Shown here in pieces: positions 58,813 through 61,472 of a stretch of 64,000 bases of DNA. The position numbers were made by a program, and so were the translations under genes. The notes under the pieces are model-generated. The model searched no databases. It saw only the letters and a program-made list of their open reading frames with translations, and was not told the origin of the DNA. Within the stretch, counting starts at the first letter, position 1; each line of letters starts with the position of its first letter. Origin of the DNA: Armatimonadota bacterium (GTDB lineage: Bacteria; Armatimonadota; Fimbriimonadia; Fimbriimonadales; Fimbriimonadaceae); the NCBI GenBank assembly GCA_037138755.1, contig JBAXHT010000003.1, positions 310,001 through 374,000 of the forward strand, written 5' to 3'.

Positions 58813-58849
58813 AGAAATGCCGCCTTTTCTCTAGGTAGGCGGCATTTCT
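58813..58849. terminator. Bidirectional terminator after infB
   Basis: A perfect 12-bp stem (AGAAATGCCGCC at 58813-58824 with GGCGGCATTTCT at 58838-58849) lies between the convergent infB and PEP-CTERM genes, followed by TTTTG on the plus strand. It ends the nusA operon and probably also the opposing transcript. Confidence 0.8.
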
Positions 58850-58855
58850 TTTGCC

Positions 58856-59605
58856 TTAGTTCTGCTTGCGCTTTCGCTTCAGCAGCCCAAACAGTCCCAG
58901 GCCGAGAGTAGCCATTGTTGCAGGCTCCGGCACGGGCGCTACGGTAACCCTCGCAAGCTCTTGGTTCTGAGTCCAAGCTGGCAACTGTGCTTCGCTATCT
59001 CCCCGCCCGCTGATGATCCCTGCATGATGACGGATGAGTCCACCTTCGGTATCAACCGGGTTACCGGATCCACCCAAGAAGCCAAGATCCGCTGCATTCT
59101 GCGAGTTGTACTCGGTACCCGCGTCCCAGGCGTCAGATCCTAGCGCAAGGTAGGAACCACCAATTGCGGTTGACCCGCTAAAGAGGTTTAGGGCTTCATC
59201 GCCTTGGCCGATTCCTATCCAACCATCATTTGTCTTTCCAAGCATGGCCGCGAAGGAAAAGAATGGGTGCGAGGCATCCGTCGTAAACGAGAAAATCCGG
59301 GTTTCGCCCGGTGCAATCGGCCCACCAGCAACTTTTCCCCAGCCACCAATATCGCTACCGGCACCAGCAATAATTGACTCGAGAGCCGCAGTATTGCCGC
59401 CTTCGGCAATGCGCTTGATCCCGAGCGAAGCAGATGACCCCGACGTGAAAATATCGAAGCCAGCGTTGTGCGCGATTCCGATGAGTGGACTCAAAGGTTG
59501 AGGTCCGAGGTTCTCCACTTTGACCTGGAACGTTTGTGCGTAAGCACTTGGAATGACAGCTAACCCGACAATAGAAAGCGCGATTTGCGCTAGTTTTTTC
59601 TTCAT
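58856..59605 (-). CDS. PEP-CTERM-anchored surface protein with spondin-like domain
   Basis: The 249-residue product has a signal peptide (LAQIALSIVGLAVIPSAYA) and a C-terminal PEP-CTERM tag: VPEPATMATLGLGLFGLLKR followed by KRKQN. Such tags direct sorting by an exosortase in bacteria that make extracellular polymers. The middle part (VKVENLGPQPLSPLIGIAHN, ISGRGDSEAQLPAW) looks like a spondin-N-type adhesion domain. No exosortase gene is in the window. It fits with the polysaccharide export gene in suggesting a surface matrix. Confidence 0.85.
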   Translation of the reverse strand: MKKKLAQIALSIVGLAVIPSAYAQTFQVKVENLGPQPLSPLIGIAHNAGFDIFTSGSSASLGIKRIAEGGNTAALESIIAGAGSDIGGWGKVAGGPIAPGETRIFSFTTDASHPFFSFAAMLGKTNDGWIGIGQGDEALNLFSGSTAIGGSYLALGSDAWDAGTEYNSQNAADLGFLGGSGNPVDTEGGLIRHHAGIISGRGDSEAQLPAWTQNQELARVTVAPVPEPATMATLGLGLFGLLKRKRKQN

Positions 59606-59731
59606 AGGTTTCCCTCAAACTGTCGGCGGCCGCTGACTCTGGGCATATTCCCGCCAGTTCGATTGGTTCCCCTATCGCTGAAACCTTAACAGATACTCTT
59701 AGGGTTTATTCGGGCAACCCCAATCCACGAC

Positions 59732-60067
59732 CTACTTCTTGGTGAACTTCCAACTCGTATCGTCCTTGCCGTCTTTTTGTGGAACTAGGGCTGAACGGGT
59801 GTTTTTGTAGACCGTGGTAATGAGCCCTTGTCCGACTGAAAAAGTCACAATGTCACCTTCCTCCTTCTAGGTGGCTTTGAGCAGGCTGAACACGCCAGCT
59901 CCAAACTCGACGTTTCCATCCGACTTCACATCAAGGATCATCCTGTCGGCTCCGGGCAAAAGGTTTTTGTTTGCAGCGTCAAAATAGTATCTTCCAGTAG
60001 CGGTGGGTTTGGAGCAGCCCGCCAAGGTAAGCAGTGCTAGGACGAGTAGTGGAAAGCGTCTCATCAA
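59732..60067 (-). pseudogene. Small lipoprotein gene interrupted by one amber codon
   Basis: The 5' part encodes 66 residues: a lipoprotein signal (FPLLVLALLTLAGCSKP, lipobox LAGC), then TGRYYFDAANKNLLPGADRM and ILDVKSDGNVEFGAGVF. After LLKAT comes TAG (59867-59869), yet the same frame continues for 44 sense codons (KEEGDIVTFSVGQGLITT, VYKNTRSALVPQKDG, DDTSWKFTKK) to a second TAG at 59732. The join is what this protein type needs (a strand such as GxATWKEEGDIVTF). One base change would restore a 111-residue protein. It is either a recent pseudogene, a stop read-through, or a sequencing error. Confidence 0.75.
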
Positions 60068-60125: not shown

Positions 60126-61472
60126 ATGTCGCTTGGACGAAAGTTCGCCGCAGATCATCTTCGAAACCTACTGCGAGACGAGCTTCGCCTCAAATCTGAA
60201 CAGGGGTTTTCCATCCCGCCTGGGCTAGCAGATCGAATGGCTCATTCCTCATTTAGTGAGTTACACGACATTGAAACTGAACTGGAGAGCCTTACAGAAC
60301 CTGATCACTTGGGGACGAACGAGCCGCTAGACTGGACGATACCAAGCCTGGCGCTTGAAAAATGGGTTCCGAACCAAAACGAACTAGACGATCGCATTCG
60401 TGGCGCTTGGTATGGGCGAATCGCCGGGTGCATCTTGGGCAAACCGTTGGAGATTCACCCGTTTATGCGTGAACCAAAGTTGCTAAGGCAATATCTGGAG
60501 CGAACGAATCAGTGGCCACTTTCCGACTTCGTAGATGCGAATGACGACGTGTGCGTCGAGATAACGGGACAGACGCTTGGTTCTCGCCCTTCGGTTCGTG
60601 GGAACATCAGGTACGCCCAAAGTGATGATGATCTACGATACACCCTCGCAGGCTTGCGCATTCTTGACAAGATTCCTAATCCTTCAACTCGCGATGTCTT
60701 CCAGTACTGGTCTAGCCACTGGCTTCCCGACCAGACGTTCACGGCTGAGCAAGCGGCGATTAGCAACAGCTACGCCTTTGGTCGTCCGCATCACTGGGAA
60801 CAACCCGAAGACGCTGAGTATCAGCAAGCAATGCGTCAATGGCGCAATCCCTATCGTGAATGGATTGGAGCGGCGATTCGCGCCGACGGCTGGGCTTATG
60901 GCTATGCGGGCAACCCTGAGCGAGCCGCCCAGGTTGCTCAGCAGGATGCTTTGATTTCTCACGAACGTAACGGTGAGTACAGCGAAATCTTCTTCGCAGC
61001 ATGGATATCGGCCTCCTTTCGTCTGCCGCTGCACGATTCTTTCAGAGTGGCACTCCAAACTGTTCCACAAAACAGCCGGCTAGCCACTGCAATGGTCGAG
61101 ACAAAGGCGCGATGTGACGCCGGAGGCACGATGGACGAGTTGCTGGACTACATTGAGGTAACCAGCGGTCACTATGATGGAGTCCACTCAATCAACAATG
61201 CTCTCGCTTGCGTAGCATCAGTATTCTTATCAAATGGCGATCTCGAACTGTCCATCACCCGGGCAGTCATGTTTGGTCTGGATACAGATTGCAACGGAGC
61301 TACCGTCGGAAGCATCGTCGGAGCAAGGGTCGGCGCGAGCGGGTTCCCAGTCGAAAAATGGATCAACCCTTTCGATGACACGATCGATTTTGAGTTTGTT
61401 GGAGAGGAACGGCAGTCTATTAACGGTCTTGCGAGTTGGACCGTGGAGCTTTGGAGAAGGCTCAACCAGTAA
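60126..61472 (+). CDS. ADP-ribosylglycohydrolase-family protein
   Basis: The 448-residue protein belongs to the ARH/DraG family, which removes ADP-ribose from proteins or small molecules using two magnesium ions. Motifs are DRIRGAWYGRIAGCILGKPLE, here in two parts DRIRGAWYGR and IAGCILGKPLE, then SDDDLRYTLAGL (first metal site), EWIGAAIRADGWAYGYAG and the C-terminal metal site FGLDTDCNGATVGSIVGAR. Residues 1-95 are an extra helical N-terminus. Many members of this type act in nucleoside or sugar metabolism. It is followed directly by miaA on the same strand. Confidence 0.85.
   Translation: MSLGRKFAADHLRNLLRDELRLKSEQGFSIPPGLADRMAHSSFSELHDIETELESLTEPDHLGTNEPLDWTIPSLALEKWVPNQNELDDRIRGAWYGRIAGCILGKPLEIHPFMREPKLLRQYLERTNQWPLSDFVDANDDVCVEITGQTLGSRPSVRGNIRYAQSDDDLRYTLAGLRILDKIPNPSTRDVFQYWSSHWLPDQTFTAEQAAISNSYAFGRPHHWEQPEDAEYQQAMRQWRNPYREWIGAAIRADGWAYGYAGNPERAAQVAQQDALISHERNGEYSEIFFAAWISASFRLPLHDSFRVALQTVPQNSRLATAMVETKARCDAGGTMDELLDYIEVTSGHYDGVHSINNALACVASVFLSNGDLELSITRAVMFGLDTDCNGATVGSIVGARVGASGFPVEKWINPFDDTIDFEFVGEERQSINGLASWTVELWRRLNQ

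Follow-up and report, generated by a model that had tools for sequence, protein, structure and literature searches.

A lipoprotein gene in a 64,000-nucleotide stretch of an Armatimonadota genome (hereafter the window) is interrupted by a single in-frame TAG codon, and the question is how this codon came to be there and whether it is read as a stop. The initial annotation had left three options, namely a fresh pseudogene, programmed read-through or a base-call error. Of these, the fresh pseudogene is the best supported and read-through is disfavoured, while a base-call or consensus error keeps some weight as the less likely account.

The interrupted gene and its neighbours

The frame had been described as 66 codons, a TAG, 44 further sense codons and a second TAG at positions 59732-60067; these coordinates and counts all hold on the minus strand, which had not been named, and the plus strand is not open over this interval. 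The count of 66 codons starts from a TTG at 60067, while an ATG at 60064, from which 65 codons precede the stop, is the more likely start (Table 1). That the gene encodes a lipoprotein is borne out by an N-terminal signal with a visible lipobox (LAGC), whose cysteine (Cys17) is invariant across seven aligned sequences (the window's frame and six full-length relatives), and by a sub-threshold match of the interrupted frame to Pfam LPAM_1 (E = 0.0039, 18 bits, just below the 20-bit cut-off).

The neighbouring gene (58856-59605, minus strand) encodes a PEP-CTERM protein that matches the Spondin_N domain, and the two genes lie between the end of infB (58800) and an ADP-ribosylglycohydrolase gene that starts at 60126 on the plus strand. 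Genes that we take to be miaA, hfq and dapF follow, and nusA presumably precedes infB; these names, including that of infB, were read off the translations and not obtained from a family search. A strong inverted repeat (AAATGCCGCC / GGCGGCATTT, 58815-58847), located where infB and the PEP-CTERM gene converge, is probably a two-way terminator.

Table 1. Position and strand of the features of the interrupted lipoprotein gene within the window
Feature	Position	Strand	Evidence or remark
Interrupted lipoprotein gene	59732..60064	-	Frame read from ATG 60064; alternative start TTG 60067; relatives align over full length
Premature TAG	59867..59869	-	Six full-length relatives have Trp (5) or Tyr (1) at the aligned position
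44 sense codons past the TAG	59735..59866	-	Homology with the family's C-terminal part
Terminal stop TAG at the family position	59732..59734	-	Same end point in the alignment for homologues L003 and L004, which use TAA
Lipoprotein signal peptide (residues 1-17; Cys17 closes the lipobox LAGC)	60014..60064	-	Sequence; Pfam LPAM_1; Cys17 invariant
Shine-Dalgarno-like AAGGAGG (59866-59860) and in-frame GTG (59848-59846)	59846..59866	-	Sequence
Two-gene block, PEP-CTERM/Spondin_N protein and broken lipoprotein	58856..60067	-	Between infB and the ADP-ribosylglycohydrolase gene; missing there in two relatives

Homology on both sides of the stop

The 44 codons past the TAG had been taken for the natural continuation of the gene, and they do match the relatives as well as the part before it. 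Termination of the orthologues at the first stop, named at the outset as the refuting case, is not what is seen: relatives within the genus and the family stay open across this position and terminate at the second TAG or close to it. In the alignment of the window's frame with six full-length relatives, the codon is TGG (Trp) in five and TAC (Tyr) in one, and a single substitution parts the TAG from the relatives' codon in an otherwise undamaged frame, in line with the initial remark that only one base was at issue. Identity before the stop amounts to 28/65 with L003 and 27/65 with L004 (43% and 42%), and after it to 18/44 with each of them (41% in both cases), the closest intact relative being ~43% identical. 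When scored by itself with BLOSUM62, the 44-residue segment reached 84 against L003 and 83 against L004, compared with 54 and 49 for the best shuffled sequences (0 of 2000 reached the real score); over the six relatives as a whole, it beat all 2000 shuffles against five, and two of 2000 shuffles reached its score against the sixth. Since homology extends past the stop, and L003 and L004 end at the place of the second TAG, the segment truly belongs to the protein as its C-terminal part.

With the read-through frame as query, matches were found in 9 of 61 genomes (the window's own genome, itself matching, together with 60 relatives), while the seven-row alignment returned 40 matches in 30 of the 113 genomes of the order, many of them weak, incomplete hits that may represent other lipocalin-like lipoproteins. 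An internal stop is present in one of these 40, the window's gene. A scan of codon usage along the entire 428-kb contig placed the stop 4th of 1957 for continuity of coding on either side of it, and 7th by margin among the 71 stops that also outscored the five other frames. No other stop of the 71 combined two scores of at least 0.2 with the absence of an ATG from the following 30 codons, a criterion that was chosen after the list had been seen.

A model of the fold, built for an intact relative from a three-row alignment (pLDDT 78.8, pTM 0.66), contains eight predicted strands, and the position of the stop corresponds to residue 69, inside the fourth strand (residues 62-72), with four more strands after it. 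Comparison of this model with known structures in VIA-align gave Z-scores of 9.2 for 3lhn (rmsd 3.1, 90 residues), 8.6 for 4u3q (rmsd 3.0, 85 residues), 8.4-8.1 for several Bacteroides lipocalin-like proteins and 7.8 for NlpE (2z4i; rmsd 2.9, 79 residues). Values for several lipocalin-like lipoprotein chains spanned 9.2-7.4, of which those below ~8 may reflect merely a common arrangement, and the best Foldseek E-value was 0.0069 (4zgf). A lipocalin-like eight-stranded barrel is thus suggested for the family by the model, rather than settled. Searches of Pfam and NCBIfam returned only weak matches for the family (the best being Lipocalin_4, PF13648, E = 0.0078, in one of seven members), and the window's protein matched LPAM_1 as its sole Pfam family, without a match to Lipocalin_4. 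A second, intact lipocalin-like lipoprotein of ~150 aa with a weak Lipocalin_4 match is encoded elsewhere on the contig (C3, 293531-293776, locus L087) and may be distantly paralogous to the broken gene.

Origin of the premature stop

The presence of the gene varies among relatives. A search for the ADP-ribosylglycohydrolase in 11 members of the genus found matches in four; in two of them, G016 (64% identity) and G001 (60%), the gene is located directly behind infB with ~50 bases between, and both the PEP-CTERM and the lipoprotein gene are missing from this interval in these two syntenic relatives. The remaining two matches were at 37-38% identity, and the synteny count covers G001 and G016 only. 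At L003 the lipoprotein gene stands beside an acyltransferase gene, and at L004 beside a homologous acyltransferase gene. The distribution of the lipoprotein gene is thus patchy, the outcome of more than one gain or loss, and this patchy presence in the genus argues that it is dispensable and makes a null allele plausible.

We regard it as probable that a dispensable lipoprotein gene has recently acquired a nonsense mutation. The gene shows a premature stop relative to intact homologues together with in-frame homology past it, as expected of a nonsense pseudogene. A gene for a lipid-anchored, lipocalin-like beta-barrel lipoprotein would have been hit by one change at a conserved aromatic position, recently enough for the remainder of the frame to have had no time to decay. 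Translation would end after residue 65, with the lipoprotein signal kept and the barrel lost from inside the fourth of its eight predicted strands onward; such a product should not fold and would probably be degraded. The dispensability of the patchy gene may be how the nonsense allele could persist.

A base-call error, or a minority allele in the consensus, would give the identical sequence, and the gene would then be intact in the living population. This is possible, if distinctly less likely. It is favoured by the single substitution that separates the TAG from the relatives' codon in a frame otherwise free of damage, by the origin of the two closest named relatives as metagenome-assembled genomes (the window's genome may be one too), and by a second gene of this genome in which, again, a single substitution accounts for the break. 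The assembly itself argues the other way, as it is of good quality, with 97.35% completeness, 0.01% contamination and 20 contigs, of which the largest seen measures 2.02 Mb, and frequent errors are made unlikely by the lack of internal stops in 49 matches to the ABC_tran domain and of any other clear case across the contig. An error-ridden assembly is accordingly unsupported: on contig C3, which makes up 13% of the genome, the scan yielded no other clear single-stop case. Its candidates, judged by eye and not each by homology, so that weak cases can be missed, included numerous shadow frames on the antisense strand and neighbouring genes in the same frame. In our judgement, a real recent mutation is to be preferred over an error.

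The second broken gene was met by chance among 59 N_methyl matches, as a match in an open frame of 40 aa. It is a pseudopilin-like gene with an N_methyl motif (genome G000, contig C1, 1475764-1476600; locus L086, 2765-3601, and L107), in which one TAA follows residue 31 and the frame runs on to about residue 279. The stop position is Lys in all five relatives fetched, and an 85%-identical intact copy exists in G001. Over the 245 codons beyond the stop, comparison with this copy gave a dN of 0.116 and a dS of 1.40 (dN/dS ~0.08, NG86), and such a low dN against dS implies that the stop is young or an error. Pseudopilins form a large family in this genome, where one of them drew 40 matches at E ≤ 1e-15, as in other members of the genus.

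A mutational hotspot was also considered for the lipoprotein TAG. The relatives' codon placed in the window's context would create CCWGG, and a C to T change at the second C would give this TAG; the same change at the second C of CCWGG is the amber hotspot of E. coli lacI. A Dcm hotspot origin was rejected, as neither the C5 methyltransferase family PF00145 (matched in 10 of 14 genomes as a control) nor Vsr (PF03852) had a match in the genome.

Translation at the TAG and comparison with known systems

If the TAG is real, the truncated 65-residue lipoprotein could in principle be a functional short form under selection, as its signal peptide and lipobox are intact. We consider this very unlikely, because none of the 40 family matches belongs to a relative that ends there, the second half of the predicted barrel would be gone, and in an old short form the abandoned 44 codons would have drifted, yet they are conserved like the rest.

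Hardly more is to be expected of a C-terminal part made by low-level read-through of the TAG or by a restart at GTG 59848 behind the AAGGAGG, which we rate as slightly less probable still. The downstream frame is intact, and the AAGGAGG lies directly past the TAG with the in-frame GTG 11 bases on; this motif is, however, probably a by-product of Lys-Glu-Glu codons and is absent from the relatives' DNA at the equivalent place, where the relatives also have a sense codon in place of the stop, and the product of a restart would be devoid of signal peptide and lipobox. A suppressor tRNA, proposed at the outset as worth looking for, was not found: a CUA (CTA) anticodon is absent from all 44 tRNA genes detected with the Rfam tRNA model in this 97.35% complete genome, with anticodons read by ARAGORN at all 44 places (30 loci and 14 further stretches). 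The gene for RF1 (prfA, TIGR00019) is present and intact, above the cut-off at 475 bits. TAG also terminates 11 of the 54 non-overlapping ORFs of at least 120 aa in the window, as well as the lipoprotein gene itself, whose own terminator a general suppressor would also read through. Together, the tRNA complement, the stop-free ABC_tran domains, the normal use of TAG as terminator and prfA led us to reject a genome-wide recoding of TAG; the two broken genes, moreover, use different stops (TAG and TAA), which fits sporadic nonsense changes or sporadic base errors better than recoding. The least probable reading of all is that the TAG and the AAGGAGG-GTG make up a two-cistron split lipoprotein, with an anchored N-terminal half pairing with a separately started C-terminal half, or that low-level read-through sets the dose of the full-length protein.

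The internal TAG is hence no sign of recoding in this lineage. The recent nonsense mutation that we favour would make the locus a clean example of a single-stop interruption of a patchy lipoprotein gene in an environmental bacterium, with little reach beyond the gene; in practice, where relatives encode a single barrel protein, gene callers will give a truncated protein of 65 residues or a pair of fragments. Systems in which UAG is read through by a suppressor or pyrrolysine tRNA have an in-frame TAG with an open frame past it, as does the lipoprotein gene, which differs from them in that no tRNA with a CUA anticodon was found among the 44 genes, the relatives carry a sense codon, and TAG is an ordinary terminator. 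To the small lipocalin-like or NlpE-like beta-barrel lipoproteins (3lhn, 4u3q, 2z4i; Lipocalin_4), the family is linked by the predicted barrel of its intact member, while it stands apart from them in having no Pfam or NCBIfam assignment. Whether fresh or apparent, the interruption of a dispensable lipocalin-like lipoprotein gene is of an ordinary kind. Seen here in one assembly, the gene resembles the recently formed bacterial pseudogenes that are treated in 'The Extinction Dynamics of Bacterial Pseudogenes' (PMC2916853) and in PMC13345370, in that one disabling change affects an otherwise intact, dispensable gene with intact homologues in related genomes.
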